Part shown: piece by piece, positions 35,648 through 64,000 of the stretch | How the letters are laid out: each line of letters starts with the position of its first letter | Numbering within the stretch: the stretch's first letter is position 1 | Origin: Ilex aquifolium | Lineage: Eukaryota > Streptophyta > Magnoliopsida > Aquifoliales > Aquifoliaceae | NCBI GenBank assembly: GCA_951799425.1 | Contig: OX637397.1 | Location: 10,467,064 to 10,531,063 of the forward strand | Direction of reading: 5' to 3' | DNA: 64,000 nucleotides | The notes under the pieces: model-generated | The model's input: the letters and a program-made list of their open reading frames with translations, nothing else | The model's database searches: none | Told to the model about the DNA's origin: nothing | Translations under genes and position numbers: made by a program

Positions 35648-36504
35648 TCACTGGTAGTACATCTTCAAGTGCTCGGCATTCCATGGATGGGGCAAAATTT
35701 TTCCCTCGGAATTCTGTATCTTGTAGGTGCCCGGCCTCACCACTTCTGTTATGAGGTAGGGTCCTTCCCAGTTCGGTTCCAGCTTTCCTTCTCGTGAATC
35801 CTTTGTGGCGAGGATCACTTTCTTAAGGACCAAGTCTCCTGGTTGGAAGGAACGAGGCTTCACCCTCGGGTTGTAGTACTTTGTCATGCAACGCTTGTAC
35901 TCCGCGTTGCGGACCACAGCCATCTCCCTTGCCCCCTCTACCAAGTCGAGGTTGATGCGGAGTCCTTCCTCATTGGTGACAGGGTCGTGGTGTTGGACCC
36001 TTAGAGAATGCACCCCGATCTCCACATGAATGACTGCCTTAGTTCCAAAGGCGAGGGAGAAGGAGGTTTCTCCAGTTGGAGTTCTTGGTATGGTCCGATA
36101 GGCCCATAATACGCCTGGGAGCTCATCGACCCAAAGACCTTTTGCCTTTTCGAGTCTTGTCTTTAGGTTGCGTAGCACCGTTCTCACCATGACCTCTGCC
36201 TGCCGTTTTCCTGTGGGTGCGCCGGGCTGGAATGAGGTTGCTTTATTTGAAGGTCGGAGCAGCAGGAGTTCAGGAGCTTGTTGTCGAACTGCTTGGCATT
36301 GTCGCTAACAATGGCGTGGGGTATCCCGAAGCTACAAACCAGGTTTTTTCAGAAGAAATCTTTCACCTTTACGTCTGTTATTTTTGCTAAGGGTTCTGCC
36401 TCCGCCCATTTAGTGAAGTAATCCACCGCTACCACCACGAACTTGCACTGTCCTTTGCTGAGAGGTCGGGGGCCTAGGATGTCGATGCCCCATTTGGAGA
36501 AAGG
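35648..36504 (-). pseudogene. Integrase core and C-terminal part of the Tat element
   Basis: On the minus strand the catalytic core is readable between 36504 and 36190. The first Asp is in WGIDILGP, the second in VSDNAKQFDN and the Glu in the following HPQENG. In-frame stops lie near 36502 and 36353, at sites where the family usually has Trp. A one-base frameshift near 36190 moves the reading to the C-terminal part (35648-36190: VLWAYRTIPRTPTGETSFSL, FQPGDLVLKKV, NWEGPYLI, AEHLKMYYQ). That part includes the typical GPY-like end. The region 35391-35647 between it and the antisense gene has no feature I can name. Confidence 0.9.
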
Positions 36505-37644
36505 TCATGGACTTGTGATGACCGTGAGCTCTTCTGGCGGTTGTCTAGGCACAGTGGCGAAGCGCTGACATTTGTCGCATTTCTTGGCAAATTTTTTGGC
36601 GTCCCTCATCATACTAGGCCAGAAGTAGCCTTGTATGAGCGCTTTGTGGGCGAAGGAGCGCCCTCCAGAATGATTCCCACAAATCCCCTCATGGATCTCC
36701 CATAGGGCATAATCGGCTTCTTCAGGTAAAAGGCACAGCAATAACGGCAGGGAGTAGCCTTTTTTGTACAAAGTATCTTGTAAAATAGTAAACTTGGAGG
36801 CTCTTATCCTGAGCTTCCTGGCTTCTAAAGGGTCATCAGGCAACATACCTTCCTGGAGGTATGCCTTTATTGGGGTCATCCAGTTTGCCTCGGCAGATGC
36901 ACAATTGACACTTGTTGCTTCCGCGTCTAACTTGCTTGGTTCGAATTGGTGACCCATGAATGTTGGTCCTGGTGGAGCTTCTGAGGACGAGGCAAGCCTG
37001 GCTAGTGCGTCGGCGGCCATGTTCTCATCCATCGGGATGTGGGTGATTTGAAAGTTTTGGAACTTCGCGACCAAGGCTTTCACAATGGCGAGGTACTCTT
37101 GCATTCTGGCTCCCTTTGCTTCGAACTCGCCCTTTACTTGGTTGACTATTAGCTGAGAGTCACTATAAGTGATGAGGTGTTGGACTTCCATTTCAATTGA
37201 CAACCTTAGTCCAGAGAGGAGGGCCTCATATTCTGCCTCATTGTTAGAGGCGATGAAGTGGAGTTTCACAGCGTACTTGATGGGAGTGCCATCGGGGCTG
37301 ATCAGGATTAAGTGAGCTCCACCTCCTTCACTAGTTGAGGAGCCATCCACATAAAGCTTCCAGAGTGGCGAAGAGGAGAGTTCGGAGAGCACTGCGGGAG
37401 TCATGGAGCCACGGGCTTGGGCACCAGGCTTGGTCGCCAGGCCTGGGTGCCAGGGAAGGAGGTCTGGGTGCCTGGGCGTGGCTGGGCGCCTGAGGAGGAA
37501 GTCTGGGCGCCAGTTTTGGGGCCCGGGAGTGTCTTGGCGCCTGGGTGTCCTCGTCGGGTATCTCCTTGCTTTGGGTGTGCGAGATCGATGTCTGAAGCGT
37601 GGAATGTTCATTGACTTCCTCTGCGAGTGTAAGCTCAGCAACAA
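36505..37644 (-). pseudogene. Second (archaeal-like) RNase H and integrase zinc finger of the Tat element
   Basis: The frame codes for a second RNase H: YVDGSSTSEGGGAHLIL, then SNNEAEYEALLSGLRL, YSDSQLIVNQVKGEF and a final DALARLAS. These carry the D-E-D-D acidic residues. The HHCC integrase finger follows (IHEGICGNHSGGRSFAHKAL ... KKCDKCQRF). The part before about residue 90 is a Pro/Arg-rich low-complexity stretch that overlaps another frame, so a frameshift lies near 37400. This double RNase H arrangement is the main reason for the Tat assignment. Confidence 0.92.
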
Positions 37645-39031
37645 AATCCGCCAAGGCTTGTGCTTTGATGGCCGCCCTTGGTTGGTATTGGATATCGAAC
37701 TCGCCTAGTTCCACTGCCCATTTTAGGAGTCTCCCGGATACATTTGGTTTTCCCAAGACTCTTTTTAGAGGCTGGTCTGTGATTATAACAACAGTGTTAC
37801 TTTGAAAGTAATGTCGCAGGCGTCTTGTTGTTGAAATGAGGGTCAACGCTAATTTTTCTAGCTCTGAATATCTGATTTCCGCTCCCTGGTATGCTCTGCT
37901 CACATAATAAATTGGCTTTTGTACCCCGTCACTGTTCTTGACGAGGACGGAGCTCACTGTCGATGGGGAAGCAGAAAGGTATAGATATAAAGTTTCACCA
38001 GATGCAGCATGTGAAAGGAGTGGAGGTGTAGCCAAGTATGCTTTAAGCTTTTGGAAGGCTTCCTCTGCCTCAGGTCCCCACTCGAAGGCCTTTCAGAGAA
38101 TTTTGAAGAAAGGCAAACATTTGTCTGCAGACTTTGAAACGAACCTATTGAGTGCTGCAATTCTCCCATTGAGGCGCTGAAGCTCATTGGTTGAGGACGA
38201 CGACTTCATATCTAAAATTGCCTTGATCTTGTCGGGGTTTGCCTCGATTCCCCTCTGATTGACCATAAAGCCAAGGAACTTTCCTGAGCCTACGCCAAAG
38301 GCGCACTTCTCAGGAGTCAACTTCATGTGGTATGACCTGAGAACGTTAAAAGTTCCTTGGAGGTGGTCAATATGATCTGCTGCGATGAGACTCTTTACCA
38401 GCATGTCATCCACATACACCTCCATTGTTTTTCCAATCTGTGACTGGAACATCTTGTTCACTAGTCGTTAATAGGTTGCTCCTGCGTTCTTCAACCCGAA
38501 GGGCATGACTCTGTAGCAGTAGGTTCCCCTTAGAGTGATGAACGATGTCTTCTCCTAGTCTGGGGGGTGCATGCTAATCTGGTTATACCCAGAATATGCA
38601 TCCAGGAATGTGAGCAATTCATGCCATACTGTGGTGTCGATAAGGAGGTCGATTCGTGGTAGTGGGTAGCTATCCTTCGGGCACGCCTTGTTGAGCTTAG
38701 TAAAGTCGACGCAGAGGCGCCACTTCCCATTAGCTTTAGTCACCATCACCACATTTGAGAGCCACTCAGGATAGGCTACTTCTCTGACCGCTCCGTTCTC
38801 TATCAACTTTCCCACCTCTTTTTCCATTGCTTGGGCCCTTTCAGTGGAGGCACCCCTTAGTTTTTGGCGAACAGGCTTGTGGTAAGGCTCGACGTTGAGG
38901 CGGTGGGTGGCGACCTCAGGGTCGATGCCCTCCAGGTCCGCATGTGACCATGCAAAAACATCCATGTTACGCTTTAAACAGTCTATGAGCTGGCGGACCA
39001 AGTTTTCAGAAAGGGAAGAACTAATATACAC
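37331..39031 (-). pseudogene. Reverse transcriptase and first RNase H of the Tat element
   Basis: One frame runs from 39031 to about 37400. RT blocks: VRQKLRGASTERAQAMEKEV, ANGKWRLCVDFTKLNKACPK, FLDAYSGYNQI, YRVMPFGLKNAGATY, and the catalytic MEVYVDDMLVKS. Three nonsense codons interrupt it: TAG at 38555-38557, TAA at about 38467 and TGA at 38093-38095. RNase H follows (KPIYYVSRAYQGAEIRYSEL; LIST; ITDQPLKRVL; QALADFVAEL), and then a Pro/Ala-rich linker where the frame is lost. Confidence 0.92.
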
Positions 39032-39141
39032 TCTTCTGGATGCTCCTCATCCAAGATCACTGGGGTGAGCTCCTCGACTGGTTCTCCTCTTTCTATAGTG
39101 GCGTCATACCTTGGGTCAAGGACCTCCACTTGCAGTGCCTC

Positions 39142-39822
39142 TTATGACTTTCTGGTCTTCGTGGAGGAGACGTAGCACTCTTTGGCAGCTACTTGGTCTC
39201 CTCGGACCTCTCCGACCCCGTTCGGGGTTGGAAAACGGAGAATGAGATGGTAGGTAGAGAGCACCGCTCTTTGAGTTTTGAGAGCAGGTCGTCCTAGAAT
39301 GATGTTGTACGCTGAAAGGCAATCTATCATCAGGAAGTTGACAATGATCGTGGAGCTTCGGGACGCTGCGCCGGCAGTGACTGGCAAGGTGATGGACCCT
39401 AGGGGATACACCTTCTCCCCAGAGAACCCAATGAAGAGCGACCTGATAGGCTGCAACCTCTCCCTGCCTAAGTTGAGCTTGTCATAAGCCTCTGCGAACA
39501 AGATATCCGTAGAGTTGCCGCTGTCCACGAGAATTCTCCGTACTTGGAAGTTGGCGACGGTCATGGTGAGAACCAGAGGGTCATCATGGGGGTGCTGGAT
39601 TTCTTTGTCTGAGAAGGATATGACCTCACTGTTGCCATGCTTGGGCGCCTTAAATGGGCACAATTCGCTGGGATGCCTAGCTTTCCTGGCATGAACCTTC
39701 ATTGCAGAGAGAGATTCTCCTCCCCCTGTAAGCCCTCCGGAGATGGTGTGAATTTCTCCGATGGACTGTTGGTCTTCCTGATTACGAGGTGGCGCTGGCG
39801 CCTGTCCTCTACCGGCAACCTA
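39142..39822 (-). pseudogene. Aspartic protease of the Tat element
   Basis: The retropepsin motif is seen as VDSGNSTDIL; the usual D-S/T-G-S/A triad reads DSG here. It is followed by ILGRPALKTQRAV, the ILGR block typical of the family. It is in the same frame as the 3' part of gag, separated by a stop at 39820. The frame ends at a TAA at about 39142, and a frameshift near 39030 precedes RT. Confidence 0.88.
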
Positions 39823-41243
39823 TTGGCATAGGTGGCCCTGTTGGATGAGTTCCTCAATCTGTCTTTTGAGGTCATAGTAGTCGTCGGTGTCGTGACCATG
39901 GTTGCGATGGAAGCGACAATATTTGTTTGAGTTCCTACGGTTTGGGGGAGACTTCATTCTCCCTGGCCACTTTACTGCGGGGTCATCCTGAATCTGTAAT
40001 AGGATGTGCCTGACAGAGGCATTGAGGGGAGTGAAGGCTTGTCGATCTCTCTTGGGAGCTGGACAGAGTCGGTCTTTGGCAGGTATCCTCTCCGTCCTAC
40101 TACGCTTGTTATTACTCTCCTTCTTATCGTCCCTGTCTCTTTCCTTTCTTTTTTCCTCAGTTCTGGAGGACTCACCTCGTCTTGCCCTTGTAATGTCCTC
40201 AACATTCATGTATTTCTGGGCCTTTGCTAGCAGCTCCGGCATGCTCTTTGGTGGACGCTTCATCATTGAGAAGAGGAAGCTTGATGACCGTAGGCCTCCC
40301 AGGAAGGTGGTCATGCTAACCTTTTCGTCAGGCTCCTCAACCTGAAGGACCTCCTCGTTAAAATGAGTGAGGTAGCTCCTTAAACTCTTATCTCGGTCCT
40401 GCTTTATGCTGAGCAGGTGGGTGGCAGGCTTCTGGTGGCGACATCCTCCAATAAAGTGCGATACGAAGGACCTGCTCTGCTCGGCAAAGAGCCAATTGAG
40501 GCGGGGGAGATCTTGGCGAACCACTGTCGAGCGGATCCCTTTAGGGTGGTTGGGAATGCTCTGCACATGATTTCGTCGGGGACGTTGTGCAGCTGCATCA
40601 AAGTCTTAAAAGTTTCGAGGTGGTCCAGTGGATCCTTCGTACCGTCAAAGGTTTCGACGGATGACATCTTGAATTTTTGAAGAAGTGGGTAGTTAGCCAC
40701 GTCAAGCTTGAAAGGTGTGTCGGTTCGACTTACGAGGTAGTCCACTGTTTCGGGTCCCTGTGCCTTCATGGCGTTGAAGACATCACCCAATTGATTCTGC
40801 ACCTCCTTAATTTTTTTGTCCCAATGATTGGGAGGAGGTCCTCTGGAATTATCACGGAAATGGCTCCCATGCTCCATACTTTGGTTTTCACCCTCATCCT
40901 CTTGGAAAGGAGGGTCTCCACCATGGGGAGCAGGAGCAGGAGCAGAGGCTGGAGGAGGAGGTCCCTCATGGTGGGCCCCCTTGTGCGGGGCGTCTAAGGG
41001 AACTCCCAAGGGTGGGGCGCCCAGAGGGGGAGCTCCTTGATGACCAGGGAGTTGAGCTCCCCTTGTTAGAGGTCCGGGCTGTACTCCTCCTTGTTGCCTG
41101 AGCATCAATTGCAGAATCTGCTGGTTCTGGGCTATAAATTGTTGCATTGTGTCCAACATCTGTTGTGCATTTGGGACTGGATTGGTAGGTGGAGGAGGAG
41201 AAACCTCCTCCTCTCGTGCTGGATTGTCCTCAGGGTGATTCAT
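39820..41243 (-). pseudogene. Gag of the Tat element
   Basis: It starts with the ATG at 41243 (MNHPEDNPAREEEVSPPPP). A Gly/Pro-rich N terminus with APPLGAPPLGVPLDAP-type repeats follows. The conserved retrotransposon-gag core is next (FDGTKDPLDHLETFKTLMQL, MCRAFPTTLKGSARQWF). The frame slips near 40510, and gag continues with FVSHFIGG, PATHLLSIKQDRDKSLRSYL and HFNEEVLQVEEPDEKVSMT. A basic region and FHRNHGHDTDDYYDLKRQIE, a CxxH-like remnant, complete it. One frameshift is the main defect. Confidence 0.9.
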
Positions 41244-54929: not shown

Positions 54930-55138
54930 TTATGTCAATGTGGTAACAACGACGAGTAGTAAACTCAGATGTTTTGAGTTTGAATTTTGATAATTTTTTG
55001 GAGTTAGACCACGAAGTATTTATTTATCATGAATACCCTAATCCTGATGTGGATGACTTATATTTGACTAGATCGAGAAAAAGATTAGTCGAGATGCGCG
55101 TAAGTTGGTTTAAACACCCTTGACTGTTAAACCAAAAA
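54930..55138 (+). mobile_element. SINE, family A, forward orientation
   Basis: The tRNA-like head has box A near GTCAATGTGGTAACAACGA and box B near GAGTTTGAATTTTGATAA. The body GATTAGTCGAGATGCGCG is shared with the reverse copies, and it ends TTTAAACACCCTTGACTG. Confidence 0.7.
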
Positions 55139-55340
55139 ACAAAAAATATTTTTACTTTTTGTACAAGTCTATGGTATACCAATTTTTTTTTATGACAATA
55201 ATAAAATTGATTTAGAGTCATAGATGTTTTGGCTTGATGCATTTTTTAATATAATAAAATAAAATTTTTTACAAGTGCCATATTTTTATTAGATAAAAAG
55301 TAAAGGTGTAATAGCAAAACATTATTATTATTATTATTTT

Positions 55341-57312: not shown

Positions 57313-57734
57313 AAAAAAAACACCCAATTAGAAAGAAATAACATCCAGCCAGTTCTTCAATTTCTTCATTTACTTTTCAATTATGCTCCCACTTTTTTAA
57401 AACATGTTGGTGTAATATGCAATCACATCTATATTACAAGGAAACGACTATTACTATTGAGAATCAAGTTAGACTTTACAAATGACAAGTTATAACTATT
57501 TATGGCTCATCACAAGGATTTGATTAATCATAAAATATTGTGGTAGATAATGAATAACTCCAATCATGTAACTTGATTTTTAAAAGATGAAATTTGACCT
57601 TTAATGATTGTATATTTACCTTATCGATCATAAAATTTTATAATTGATCATTGTGAACTTGAGTTGTAGCATAAATTTTTTTAAGTAAGTTGAAATTTAG
57701 ACACTCATTAGATTGAATTTGTTTTTTTTTTTTT

Positions 57735-57830
57735 GGTTCAACGATTAAGGGTGTTCAGAGCAGTTTAAACGCATCTCGACTAATTCTCTCTCCGATCTAT
57801 TAAAAAACAAATCATTCACGTCAGAACTAT
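57735..57830 (-). mobile_element. Truncated SINE, family A, reverse orientation (3' part only)
   Basis: It reads GGTTCAACGATTAAGGGTGT and CATCTCGACTAATTCTCTCT on the plus strand, then is lost after about 57830. The tRNA-like head is missing. Confidence 0.55.
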
Positions 57831-58086
57831 ATAACCTTCGGTATGAAACCGAAAGAATTATTGAAGTCCATTCCAAGGACCCGACTACGGTACAACCAAA
57901 TGAATTTTCGGTATGGTACCGAAATCCAATGTGCACTGTAGATCTGTCTAACAAGAAAACTGAGCCGTTGATTTTATTTTTCCAAAGACTTACCGGTTAC
58001 CGGTTGGATACCGGCTGCTAGACATGTCAGATAGTACATATGAGGACTAGGAAATTGTGTAACGTAATGAAAGGAATATTTACAAG

Positions 58087-58985
58087 TTGAATGGATTGTA
58101 TACCAAATTTTTGGGTATATGTACAATTTCAATGGAAATATTTACAACTTTCATGGATTATTTACCACTTTTTTTGAGAATATTTACAACTTCAATGGAT
58201 CAATTACCACTTCAATGGATCATTTACCACTTTTATAGAAAAATTTACAACTTCAATGGATCGTTTACGACAGTAATAGATTTTTTACGATATTTAATAC
58301 TCCATGATCGATCATTAAATATGATCGATCGATCATATTTTAACGTAATATATGAGTAACCCAAGAAGATATACAACTTCAATGGATGATTTTACCACTT
58401 TTAAAGAAATATTTACAACTTTCATGGATTATTGACCACTTATAATGTAATATTTACAAATTTAATGGATCAATACCACTTTTATGGGAATATTTACAAC
58501 TTCAATTAATCATTTACTACTTTTATAGTAATATTTACAACTTCAATGGATAATGTACCACTTCAATGGATCATTTACCACTTTTATAGGAAAATTTCCA
58601 ACTTCAATGGATCGTTTACAATAGTAATGGATTTTTTACGATATTTAATACTCCATGATCGATCATTAAATATGATCGATCGATCATATTTTAACGTAAT
58701 ATATGAGTAACCCAAGAAGATATGCAACTTCAATGGATGATTTTACCACTTTTAAAGAAATATTTACAACTTTCATGGATTATTGACCACTTTTAATGGA
58801 ATATTTACAAATTTAATGGATCAATACCACTTTTATGAGAATATTTACAACTTCAATTGATCATTTACTACTTTTATAGTAATATTTACAACTTCAACGG
58901 ATAATTTACCACTTCAATGGATCATTTACCACTTTTATAGGAAAATTTCCAACTTCAATGGATCATTTATCACTTTTATGGGAAT
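58087..58985 (+). repeat. Irregular minisatellite with a 351-bp higher unit and GATCGATC palindromes
   Basis: The basic word ATTTACAACTTCAATGGATC followed by ATTTACCACTTTTAT recurs about every 37 bp with variation. A larger unit holding CCATGATCGATCATTAAATA occurs twice, 351 bp apart (58302 and 58653). It is related to the 180-bp array that follows. Confidence 0.85.
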
Positions 58986-60705
58986 ATTTACGACTAGTAG
59001 GAGTAGCATTTACGAAAGCAATGATATTTTTTACAATATTTAATGGTCTATGATCGATCATATTATATGTTCGATCGATCATGGCACTCAGGTGTGTTCG
59101 TAAGTAATGGATAATCCAATAATATATACAACTTGAATGGATCATTTACCACTTTTATGGGAATATTTACAACTAATGGGGGGAAGCATTTACTAAAGCA
59201 ATGATATTTTTTTACAATATTTAATGGTCCATGATCGATCATTGCATATGTTCGATCGATCATGGAAGTCAAGTGAGTTCGTAAGTAATGGCTAATCCAA
59301 TAATATATACAACTTGAATGACTCATTTATCACTTTTATGAGAATATTTACAACTAATGGGGGGAAGCATTTACCAAATCAATGGTATTTTTTACAATAT
59401 TTAATGGTCCATGATCGATCATATTATATGTTTGATCGATCATGGCACTCAGGTGTGTTCGTAAGTAATGGATATCCAATAATATATACAACTTAAATGA
59501 ATCATTTACTACTTTTATGGGAATATTTACAACTAATGGGGGGAAGCATTTACTAAAGCAATGATATTTTTTTACAATATTTAATGATCCATGATCGATC
59601 ATTGCATATGTTCGATCGATCATGGAAGTCAGGTGAGTTCGTAAGTAATGGCTAATCCAATAATATATACAACTTGAATGACTCATTTATCACTTTTATG
59701 GGAATATTTACAACTAATGGGGAGAAGCATTTACCAAATCAATGATATTTTTTACAATATTTAATGGTCCATGATCGATCATATTATATGTTCGATCGAT
59801 CATGACACTCAGGTGTGCTCGTAAGTAATGGATATCCAATAATATATACAACTTGAATGGATGATTTACCACTTTTATGAGAATATTTACAACTAATTGG
59901 GGGAAGCATTTACTAAAACAATGATATTTTTTTACAATATTTAATGGTCCATGATCGATCATTGCATATGTTCGATCGATCATGGAAGTCAGTTGAGTTC
60001 GTAAGTAATGACTAATCCAATAATATATACAACTTCAATGAATCATTTACCACTTTTATGAGAATATTTACAACTAATGGGGGGAAGCATTTACCAAAGC
60101 AATGGTATTTTTTTACAATATTTAATGGTCCATGATCGATCATTGCATATGTTCGATCGATCATGGAAGTCAGTTGAGTTCGTAAGTAATGGCTAATCCA
60201 ATAATATATACAACTTCAATGAATCATTTACCACTTTTATGAGAATATTTACAACTAATGGGGGGAAGCATTTACCAAAGCAATGGTATTTTTTTACAAT
60301 ATTTAATGGTCCATGATCGATCATATTATATGTTCGATCGATCATGACACTCAGGTGTGTTCGTAAGTAATGGATATCCAATAATATATACAACTTGAAT
60401 TGATGATTTACCACTTTTATGAGAATATTTACAACTAATGGGGGGAAGCATTTATTAAAGCAGTGGTATTTTTTTACAATATTTAATGGTCCATGATCGA
60501 TCATTGCATATGTTCGATCGATCATGGAAGTCAGTTGAGTTCGTAAGTAATGGCTAATCCAATAATATATACAACTTGAATGGATCATTTACCACTTTTA
60601 TGAGAATATTTACAACTAATGGGGGGAAACATTTACTAAAGCAATGGTATTTTTTTACAATATTTAATGGTCCATGATCGATCATATTATATGTTCGATC
60701 GATCA
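58986..60705 (+). repeat. 180-bp satellite array, about ten units, two subtypes in near-alternating order
   Basis: The hairpin core starts near 59048, 59229, 59409, 59589, 59769, 59949, 60130, 60311, 60491 and 60672, a steady 180-181 bp step. Each unit has CCATGATCGATC, a short AT-rich loop, and GATCGATCATGG, a 12-bp inverted repeat. Subtype A has ATATTATATG in the loop and a CACTCAGGTGTG flank; subtype B has TTGCATATG and GAAGTCAGTTGAG. The order is A B A B A B B A B A, so a 360-bp dimer is the likely amplification unit. Open frames on the minus strand are repeats of this unit, not genes. Confidence 0.93.
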
Positions 60706-60735
60706 ATATGTATTCTGTGATGGAGGAAAATCGAG

Positions 60736-61020
60736 TTACATGAATTAGATCGATCAAACATAAATTCTGATCGATCAGAATGTCACAGTTGTTTCAATCA
60801 GAGATTAAAAATACTGTGGCGGTCTGATCGATCGTATAAAAAAATGATAGATCAAATATGTACAAAACTCGAATTTGATCCATCACAGAATACTTATTTG
60901 ATCTATCATTTTTTGAAAACGATCGATCAGAACGCCACAGTACTTTTAAAACTCTGATTGAAACAACTGTGACAATATGATCGATCTTAATTTATGTTTG
61001 ATCGATCTATTTCATGTAAT
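60736..61020. repeat. Large imperfect hairpin with about 130-bp arms, GATCGATC-rich
   Basis: The left arm TTACATGAATTAGATCGATC ... GTCACAGTTGTTTCAATCAG ... TACTGTGGCG is matched in reverse by the right arm ... CGCCACAGTACT ... CTGATTGAAACAACTGTGAC ... GATCGATCTATTTCATGTAA. The loop is near 60865-60890. Confidence 0.9.
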
Positions 61021-61083
61021 TTAATTTTTTAATTAATTCATGTAATTTTTTTAATTAAAATATTAAATATAATTTAATTTAAT

Positions 61084-61432
61084 ATAAGATCGATCATAAA
61101 TATATTAGATCGATCAAATATTGTAATGGATTATTCGATCACTGAATAATGATCGATCGTGTACATATGAACAAGTTAACGATCGATCAAATTGTAGTGA
61201 TCGATCAGTTAGATAGATCTAAATTGGTCACATTCTGAAAGTTAGTGATCGATCACTTAGTTATTCGATCTATCATTAACCTTTTGCCACTTCATGATCG
61301 ATCATTTATTTTGCGATAGATCAATGTAGAGGTGTTGTAGCAGAAGAATGGTGTTTCAGTCCCTCATATTAGCGGGTTAAATGTGGTAGGCTGAAACTAT
61401 TCGATCGATCGTATATTAGTTTGATCGATCGG
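61084..61432. repeat. Dispersed GATCGATC palindrome cluster
   Basis: About ten GATCGATC or GATCGATC-like words occur in 350 bp of otherwise unrelated sequence, in no fixed spacing, ending about 280 bp before the first candidate exon of the next gene. Confidence 0.8.
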
Positions 61433-61710
61433 AAGTTAATTTTTTTCCCAGGCTGAACGACGTCGTTTAGTGTTTATTTCCATACCAACCAATCAGGTTG
61501 TGACAACTAGCTACAGCAGTTCCCTCATATTTCCTCCATAATCCCGCCAAAAACCACTACCCAGCTCCCTCCATCCTCTAAACATTGAGCTCACTGGTCT
61601 CCTCTTTCTATCTTCCAAAAAATCATCACTCTCCTATTCATCCGACTCCATCTTCTTTGTTCCGAATTCTGTGCCTCCCTCTGCATCACAAGCTTTTTAT
61701 TCCTTGCAAT

Positions 61711-64000
61711 ATGGGTTTGAGGTCATAAGTATCCCCTTTCAGTATTTCAAAAAAGGTTTGTATTGGTCTACGTAGAAGTGTGTACACTCCTCATTTGTCT
61801 TAGTTTCGGCTTGTTGTGATTAACGACCAGGAGGAGATACATAATAAGGTATCATCAACTTAGTAGTGAATCTATGAAATGTTATTTTTTATAAATGGTA
61901 TGTTTTCAGTGTTTGACATCTCTGTGTGTGTCATAATTGGAAACATTTACGTACTGGTAATGATGTTATAGTTGTGAATGAATGTGTTGGTGAGTGAGTG
62001 TGTTTGAGAAGGATGTCTGACTGGTTTAGAGAAGTGTATGTGTAGCATATACTTATTTATATGACCTATATACCATGTGTTATTTGCAGGGTAGTAGCAA
62101 GGCAATAGACTTGGGAAGTCCAATTTGGCGATTTTTGTAATGTAAGATATGATTATATTGTTGAAAATATTTCAGAATCATCACATTTCAGACTTCATAT
62201 TATGGTACATATTCCAGGGGGAAGAAGAGGTCACAGGAGACAAAGGCCGAAGGCTTGAAAACACAACGTCCACCTACTGCATGGCTATTTTTCTAGTATG
62301 AAAAATTTGTGTATTGTAGTGTAAAATTATTTTGTGGTTAATGTATATTTGATAATGTACGCATTTGTTGTACTTCCATTACAGTAAGGAACAAATGCAG
62401 AATGTCAAAGGAAATGCTGATCAAAAAGTGACACGCGAGGTATAATTTTTGTTACAACGAGCGAGTATTGTTTGGAATAGTGAAATTAATAATGTCTTCC
62501 AATTGAACTTGTACTCATAAGGTGACTAAACAACTGGCTGACCAATGGAGGAAGATGGCAGATTGTGAGAAAGAGAAATACAAAGAAATGTCTATACATG
62601 CTAAGAGTGAATATGATCGTGTGAAAGATAATTCTGGGAAAATAACAGTACGGGTAATTATATAATTTCGATGCTAATTTTCACAATTCATCGTTTACAT
62701 TTACTGCACCTCTCCAACTGACATTTCTGTCTATGTTTTGACAAATAATCAAAGGGGACGCTTGGTACAAGGTGTTCGCCTGGGAAAATTGTAAAAATGA
62801 TACAACTTTTATGTGATGAGCAGAAAGCTGCAATAAAAGAACTTGGTTTTGGAGGGATGTTGAGCCTCAAATGTGGGGAACTGAAGCGGGGTTTATGTGC
62901 ATGGTTGATTGAACGGTTTGACACTGTGTCATTGACATTAAATGTGTACGGTGAAGCTATTCAGTTATCAGCCATGGATGTTGAATGTGTCATGGGTTTG
63001 AGAAATGAAGGCTTGGACATGGAGACTACTGGGCCCAGTGAAAGAATTAATGGCATTTGGAATTCATTATTCAATGGTGTTAAGGATATCCCATTGAGAC
63101 ATGTGAGTGAGAGACTTTGTGTACTTAAAGTGGCTTCGGATGAGTTTAGGATATATTTTGTGCTATTTCTTATTGGACATCTTCTATACCCAACCATGCG
63201 TACTTCAATTAGCAGCGGGTATCTTCACAGTGTTGTAGACGTTCCTTCTATAGGGAAGAGAAATTGGGCGAAATTTGTATTTGATGGTATGGTTGAAGGG
63301 GTACGAAAATATCAAACACGTCATCATAAAAATGTTAGTGGATGTTTACTTGTTCTTATGGTAAGGTATCATTTTTTTTGTTTAGTATTTTTATGTTGTG
63401 CTTGTTTCACAAAACTTTTACTGAATGACCTCGTTTAATTTTTTAATGTAGATAGTATATCTAGAGCGGGTCACACCCAAAGCGGTGTTTGTTAAACAAC
63501 CGCCATGTAGGAGCATCCCTCGAATTGCTGCATGGGGGGATGAGGAAATTAAGAAACATGTAAGCATGTTGAAGAAGTCCAAGCGACTAGCATGTCAAGA
63601 AGTTACTTGCAAAGTTTTGGACGACACCATGAATAAACCCCAACCAGTCGCTACAGTAAGCCTTAGTAAACGGTCCACCCATGAAGTGAAGCAACCTATT
63701 TTGACATCAGATGAAAAACCACCGGTACGTATATACCATGATACTGAAATCACATTGATTTATAATAAGTTTAGGACACGTGATTAATTGTGTAAATGTG
63801 TAGGAATGGGAGGCCAGAATGGTTAAGATGGAGAATGCGATTGTTAACCTTACTGGCATGGTGGGGTCAATGGTTAACATGATGCAAATGTTCATGGGTG
63901 GATCGTTTCCTAAACCATCAAATTACCAAGACATAGAGAATGCTGCTGCTGTCGGAGAAGTTGATGAGAAAAAAAATAAAATTGACTTGAATGAAGGTGT
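61711..64000 (+). CDS. HMG-box protein fused to plant-mobile-domain/DUF1985-like region (3' end outside window)
   Basis: Firm exons 62218-62295, 62385-62439, 62522-62653, 62755-63360, 63452-63724 and 63804 to the window end join without a stop. A tiny first exon, 61711-61721 (ATGGGTTTGAG), has the right phase and is the likely start, giving MGLRGKKRSQ. An HMG box follows: RPPTAWLFFYKEQMQNV, VTKQLADQWRKMADCEKEKY and KEMSIHAKSEYDRV. Such boxes bind and bend DNA. The long exon codes for EQKAAIKELGFGGMLSL, LCAWLIERFD, VYGEAIQLSAMDVECVMGL, FVLFLIGHLLYPT and VSGCLLVLM. These are recognised from memory as the plant-mobile-domain/DUF1985 type seen in transposon and Ulp1-like proteins. The C-terminal part is KR- and Met-rich. 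No transposase catalytic motif is visible within the window. It could be a transposon gene or a domesticated one. Confidence 0.72.

Follow-up and report, generated by a model that had tools for sequence, protein, structure and literature searches.

A giant FAR1-type Mutator-superfamily transposon of Ilex aquifolium with phased one-way motif arrays at its ends and a putative VANC/KIU-like anti-silencing system

The window analysed here, a stretch of 64,000 nucleotides from Ilex aquifolium (C7:10467064-10531063), holds at its right end the first part of a transposable element that was followed beyond the window edge. The whole element is 26,810 bp long and extends from window position 57877 to C7:10551749 (window-equivalent 84686), that is, 20.7 kb beyond the window. 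It is almost certainly a giant Mutator-superfamily transposon (Mutator-like element, MULE) with terminal inverted repeats (TIRs) and a FAR1-type transposase, and it carries in addition two convergent accessory genes, gene 1 on the plus strand and gene 2 on the minus strand. The genome searched comprised 800 Mb in 103 contigs. The features of the element inside the window, with the evidence for each, are the following.

57868-57876, strand not applicable: left copy of the 9-bp target duplication CCATTCCAA, with the right copy at C7:10551750-10551758.
57877-64000, plus strand: left 6.1 kb of the 26,810-bp element (common border, right end, target duplication).
57877-57935, plus strand: left TIR (GGACCCGACTACGGTAC...), decayed in this copy (border common to copies, terminal-pattern matches).
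58073-58995, plus strand: degenerate 20.5-bp array with AAGTKGTA on the minus strand, within 351-bp units that also bear GATCGATC (word counts, periodicity).
58950-60705, plus strand: 9.7 copies of a 181-bp satellite whose units each contain a GATCGATC dyad with a 21-bp spacing (copies found inverted at the right end).
60705-61028, no strand: large near-palindrome (hairpin) with six GATCGATC (in many copies, query 2641-2942 is matched on the reverse strand).
61088-61430, no strand: nine scattered GATCGATC words (word count).
62267-62653, plus strand: HMG-box exons of gene 1 (62267-62293 by eye, 62386-62439, 62522-62653; domain match, exon joins predicted from sequence).
62749-63360, plus strand: exon of gene 1 resembling DUF1985 and the plant mobile domain (PMD) (Pfam scores below cut-off).
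63452-64000, plus strand: further open frames of gene 1, which leaves the window and reaches a Ulp1 (Peptidase_C48) exon at window-equivalent 65573-65899.

The left border at 57877 is common to five copies, that of the window included, whose flanks are unrelated, and the element of the window is flanked on both sides by CCATTCCAA, a perfect 9-bp duplication. TIRs of 58-64 bp were present in five of the six aligned elements; those of the window's copy are decayed and retain 35 identical bases at positions 8-49. An earlier note on this DNA had begun the region at 58087, short of the true border, and had reported neither TIR nor target duplication, both of which exist. Allowing up to one mismatch, the terminal word GGAGCCGACTACGGTAC was found 58 times in forward and 56 times in reverse orientation (114 genome-wide), the reversed control giving 0 and 1. 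Among the matches listed, convergent pairs of termini lay 28.6-31.6 kb (10 pairs, counted by hand), 44-46 kb (3 pairs) and 0.7-7.5 kb (9 pairs) apart. Both ends were read in 12 pairs of our own selection; a perfect 9- or 10-bp duplication flanked 10 of them, the C13 pair was alike at 7 of 9 positions by eye, and the 691-bp C10 pair had none. The DNA search with 58087-64000 as query gave at least 18 matches, the window included, spanning at least 5 kb at 88-100% identity (25 scored of 87 matches); therefore, array, hairpin and gene move together. This agrees with the proposal of the earlier note that the array is the subterminal region of a large element. A MULE-type transposase, target duplications of about 9 bp and TIRs, all features of the Mutator superfamily (the last common in it but not required), are present in an element that has been mobile in the past.

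The transposase, at window-equivalent 76489-78881, is split over two overlapping frames and is therefore broken in the window's copy. It contains FAR1 (E 9.8e-23) and MULE (PF10551, E 2e-26) domains and, towards the C-terminus, a SWIM match just below the cut-off (19.1 against 19.6 bits) and weak CCHC matches (E 0.04; zf-CCHC_6, 0.014). As a query it gave at least 120 matches, with the window's family extending down to about 74% identity and relatives at 60-69%; many open frames of about 790-870 codons were found. Gene 1 was described in the earlier note as having an HMG box and a plant mobile domain; the former is well supported (HMG_box_2, E 2.9e-6, 28.3 bits with a cut-off of 22.4), while the match of the latter is weak and lies below the Pfam cut-offs. 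Gene 2 has one DUF1985/PMD-like exon and Ulp1 exons. Peptidase_C48 (Ulp1) is above the cut-off in both accessory genes (E 2.6e-14 and 1.1e-15), and DUF1985 is weak in both (19.5 and 22.0 bits, cut-off 35.1). In the genome, the gene 1 exon gave 61 consecutive matches at 77-100% identity and then mostly 46-55% (best 150 of 152 matches). Eight of nine copies of this exon had no stop, and the pooled ratio of nonsynonymous to synonymous differences (pN/pS) was 0.44; in some pairs it exceeded 1. For the DUF1985 exon, a structure predicted from the single sequence reached a pLDDT of 33 and was not used. Near the right end of the element, at window-equivalent 80549-81730 on the minus strand, there are open frames similar to Transposase_32, a putative plant transposon protein (E 1e-10, just below the cut-off), which may be either a further gene or a nested insertion.

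The palindrome GATCGATC occurs 41 times in the window and all 41 words lie inside 58306-61430, in accordance with the estimate of the earlier note (some 40 in 58300-61430, rare elsewhere); 500 dinucleotide-preserving shuffles of 58300-61430 gave a mean of 0.13 and a maximum of 2. The three arrangements which that note had recognised by eye, namely satellite hairpins, one large hairpin and scattered words, are all real. The 351-bp units start at 58132 and precede the 181-bp satellite, the main arms of the hairpin (60727-60811 and 60944-61028) are 88% complementary and enclose nested arms, and the zone of scattered words is likely the promoter region of gene 1. Of the spacings between adjacent words, 10 of 19, 4 of 14 and 7 of 24 measure 19-22 bp in the three zones of the window's element that were counted. 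Over the whole element there are 66 words, confined to two subterminal zones, and none in the 20.7 kb between them.

The satellite dyad pattern had 897 matches genome-wide (442 and 455 in the two orientations) and the reversed control none. The first 100 of these form 23 clusters, and with termini and gene exons entered by hand from the listings, 20 of the 23 are no more than 35 kb away from a terminus or a gene exon (13 of these, from a gene exon) and 3 are near neither. The 181-bp satellite is part of a transposon end and not a repeat in its own right. The earlier note had held that satellite copies lacking the gene would speak against the association of the two. Such copies do exist, for example the 691-bp element with termini, but they are expected of non-autonomous derivatives. 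This element (C10:11751153-11751843) consists of two inverted termini around near-pure satellite in inverted halves, with five GATCGATC and no target duplication.

A second, phased word array had been overlooked. AAGTKGTA, that is AAGT[TG]GTA, has plus:minus counts of 0:36 at the left end, 10:0 at the right end and 0:1 in the body of the element, compared with 3:3 in the first 57 kb of the window, outside the element. Both this array and that of GATCGATC are inverted in orientation between the two ends. All 24 AAGT[TG]GTA spacings below 110 bp deviate from a multiple of 20.5 bp by no more than 1.5 bp, and autocorrelation at 20-21 and 41-42 bp was faint in the body, which served as a control. 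The core AGTTGTA, held in common with VANC6 sites, is found 28 times at the left end and 5 times at the right end.

With respect to conservation, the window's copy was compared with six others. In the body of the element CG sites differ at 10.9%, against 2.8% at other sites, an excess that may be read as a footprint of CG methylation. Inside GATCGATC, with the words taken as defined by the window's copy, CG sites differ at 2.2% and others at 0.84%, while the figures for the remaining left array are 13.7% and 7.3%. In a symmetric count, 221 of 246 GATCGATC 8-mers were identical, against 61.9% over all 8-mer windows. Among 98 satellite units the motif differs at 1.4% and the remainder at 7.3% (p 0.03), and further stretches of the unit are equally kept.

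Four relatives with 51-55% identity in the gene 1 exon (L050-L053) were also studied, taking from each 4-5.7 kb ending in this exon. All four have an HMG box above the cut-off and a transposase 67-68% identical to that of the window's element, 13-35 kb downstream of the exon on the same strand; the accessory gene thus diverges faster than the transposase. Autocorrelation peaks at 20-21 and 41-42 bp were present in the four families, and their arrays align weakly with that of the window (short 67-75% matches to the 21-bp array of L051 and two of 45-55 bp to L052). Three of the families have one-way words, with counts of 0:37 in L051, 24:0 in L050, and 9:0 and 7:0 for words particular to L052. 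GATCGATC was counted 18 times in L052, 8 in L051, 1 in L050 and 0 in L053, the shuffle expectation being 0.02, 0.01 and 0.007 for the first three; adjacent words 19-22 bp apart account for 6 of 17 spacings in L052 and 0 of 7 in L051. That GATCGATC clusters always accompany the gene, a point which the earlier note had proposed to check, is therefore not supported, since two of the four families lack them. A link between absence of the palindrome and absence of the second DUF1985 gene was considered and rejected, as the L050 and L053 families own a second gene; none was found for the L051 and L052 families among the matches listed, from which no inference is drawn. The L051 terminus, read by eye, had 133 matches in the genome when as many as three mismatches were allowed, against 3 for the reversed control, and by eye no fewer than 14 of the 100 matches listed sit 4.9-7.8 kb upstream of a gene 1 exon match. 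For L052, a putative terminus was guessed by eye. As separate observations, a 22-bp repeat, AAAAAAGTTGGAACCCCTACCC, is present in about 78 copies at positions 1-1709 of L050, upstream of its HMG-DUF1985 gene, and at C14:22028399, 22050137 and 22071877 three relatives whose exon scores are equal follow one another at intervals of about 21.7 kb, all in the same orientation, as in a tandem triplication.

The element holds the same set of parts as the VANC/KIU systems: DUF1985-like/Ulp1 genes, one-way arrays that vary among families, and accessory genes that diverge faster. We consider it somewhat probable, from sequence comparison, that this giant MULE carries a VANC/KIU-like sequence-specific anti-silencing system, and that it probably bears docking sites for its own protein, which would protect it from silencing. 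Binding, anti-silencing and the assignment of a word to a protein are what we infer here; that the gene product binds the palindromes, as the earlier note had suggested, is plausible. One or both of the DUF1985-like/Ulp1 proteins, that of gene 1 having the HMG box too, would bind the arrays cooperatively. The unidirectional AAGTKGTA words, one to several 20.5-bp steps apart, would be the VANC-type sites, two turns apart on one face of the helix. GATCGATC, frequently present as pairs with a spacing of 20-21 bp, would serve as a second site, of palindromic type. Through binding, the ends and promoters of the own family only would lose their DNA methylation, so that the transposase would be made and the ends would be kept accessible. 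Protein and array sequence would change together and the two-turn step would stay constant.

Several results weigh against this interpretation. The exact VANC6 words AGTTGTAC and AGTTGTCC and the VANC21 word do not occur in either end of the element, and the PMD (E 0.011) and DUF1985 (E 0.001) matches of gene 1 are under the Pfam cut-offs. It must be noted that the array words were picked after enriched words had been viewed, and that the spacing counts are not independent, owing to tandem duplication. The flank control (first 30 kb of the 57-kb flank) had a weak excess at lag 20 (0.292 vs 0.274) and none listed at 41. Of six control words, TCCAATAA and GTAAGTAA were as well kept as GATCGATC, and four less so. 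In the diverged families, L050 and L053 have no GATCGATC clusters, none of the nine words tried in L053 was clearly one-way, and the AT-rich word TTAATTTGA is two-way in L050 (11:5) and L053 (9:7).

A wider proposal, which we advance tentatively and hold to be doubtful, is that of a geometric code. HMG-DUF1985-Ulp1-type proteins would read words that recur on one face of the DNA at intervals of two helical turns, coating both ends of the element; the word would drift with the protein while the step of 20.5-21 bp stayed fixed, GATCGATC would be a second, more slowly changing palindromic anchor, and the several families would have been caught at different stages of co-evolution.

It is unlikely, although somewhat in keeping with the subterminal position and inverted orientation of the arrays at both ends, that these are sites of the transposase itself, used in end recognition and synapsis, with the HMG-DUF1985-Ulp1 genes serving some other function. 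In Aedes, MULEs like Muta1 carry tandem repeats of 9-15 bp in subterminal position (PMC5225508), and the 691-bp derivative is little beyond termini and satellite; this derivative, however, has no target duplication. Moreover, the transposase is 67-68% identical across families whose arrays largely differ, and arrays of about 3 kb would go well beyond the needs of an end. Even less probable, in our opinion, are passive satellites that grew within the transposon by slippage or unequal exchange and bind nothing, their homogenised units mimicking conservation. The tandem duplication is clear, TCCAATAA and GTAAGTAA match GATCGATC in conservation, the unit-wise test reached just p 0.03, and L053 is without a one-way word. 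Against such an origin, the bases around the recurring GATCGATC vary both in L052 and in the scattered zone, the 20-21-bp period is common to five families of differing sequence, and CG sites within the palindrome differ far less than elsewhere in the left array (2.2 vs 13.7%). Finally, a CACTA-type element, for which only the analogy drawn in the earlier note spoke, or an ordinary host gene beside a satellite is refuted by the 9-bp duplications, the MULE transposase and dozens of co-mobile copies; the termini are GGA...CCGACTACGGTAC, unlike the CACTA termini and 3-bp duplication of En/Spm.

Two further observations concern the DNA to the left of the element. An inverted repeat whose 103-bp arms are 76% identical (window 55044-55146 and 57722-57824) stops about 50 bp from it and may represent a different mobile element at the insertion site. 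On the minus strand at 35648-41243, several long open frames in a row resemble, by eye, a retrotransposon of the Ty3/gypsy type.

Among known elements, the Jittery group of MULEs is similar in domain content, on which this comparison is based, with FAR1 at the N-terminus, a MULE core and SWIM/CCHC at the C-terminus (PMC6446971), and a Ulp1 region is known in some Jittery-like MULE families of grapevine (PMC2528002). Two families listed there are, in contrast, 11.9 and 14.4 kb long, and the descriptions in these sources make no mention of an HMG box, two accessory genes or target-like arrays (PMC6446971; PMC2528002). A PMD-like domain on a MULE has also been reported for elements with a captured plant mobile domain, whose authors speculate on anti-silencing (PMC5418596); in those of grasses and Amborella, however, PMD-C is fused to the transposase, whereas here the HMG-DUF1985/PMD-Ulp1 gene is separate. 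Muta1 of Aedes and its relatives are likewise MULEs with subterminal tandem repeats and 8-9-bp duplications, but the Aedes element is of about 3.2 kb, has its 9-15-bp repeats within the TIR and encodes the transposase only (PMC5225508). A literature search that did not include Sasaki 2022, the most relevant paper, found no HMG box on such a gene, no such element size, no palindromic second motif and no two-turn phasing; among the papers listed for GATCGATC, none concerned a MULE by its title or abstract opening, and no paper joined three or more of PMD, HMG-box, Mutator and Ulp1.

The closest likeness is to the VANDAL elements of Arabidopsis. Their VANC proteins, which are DUF1985 proteins, are reported to bind short motifs, dense and one-way, within the noncoding tandem repeats that belong to their own VANDAL family, leading to loss of methylation (PMC5735166; PMC10398659). 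These motifs differ between families (PMC5735166): VANC21 reads YAGTATTAY, and VANC6 targets bear AGTTGTCC/AGTTGTAC (PMC5735166; PMC10398659). According to a review, the Ulp1-bearing VANC genes (KIU) work likewise (PMC13317346), and VANC is described as outpacing VANA in evolution in Arabidopsis. The words interval, spacing, period and helical are absent from the main text of PMC5735166. The present element is similarly a MULE with a DUF1985-like accessory protein, with Ulp1 as in KIU, and with short motifs that lie densely and in one direction within noncoding tandem repeats and vary among families (L053 being the exception); the core AGTTGTA recalls VANC6 sites. It differs in its FAR1-type transposase, its size of 27-30 kb in these elements, the HMG box on one gene, the second palindromic motif and the fixed step of 20.5-21 bp, and here the anti-silencing is putative and the DUF1985 match weak. 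VANDAL elements are defined by no or short degenerate TIRs, against 58-64 bp here, although the VANDAL group of PMC6446971 takes in members with TIRs of 46-174 bp. The transposase was not assigned to the VANDAL clade, as FAR1 does not appear in the table entry for this group (PMC6446971); because FAR1 is the mark of the Jittery group in that classification, the element is not filed as VANDAL. Within one genome there are numerous similar copies together with four or more related families, which have differing arrays and a common helical step; therefore, the joint change of protein and target, and whether spacing or sequence is the signal that is kept, can be tested directly. Sequence-specific anti-silencing by a transposon has been worked out for VANDAL in Arabidopsis, and apparently the same logic is found here on a much larger MULE with TIRs and another type of transposase.

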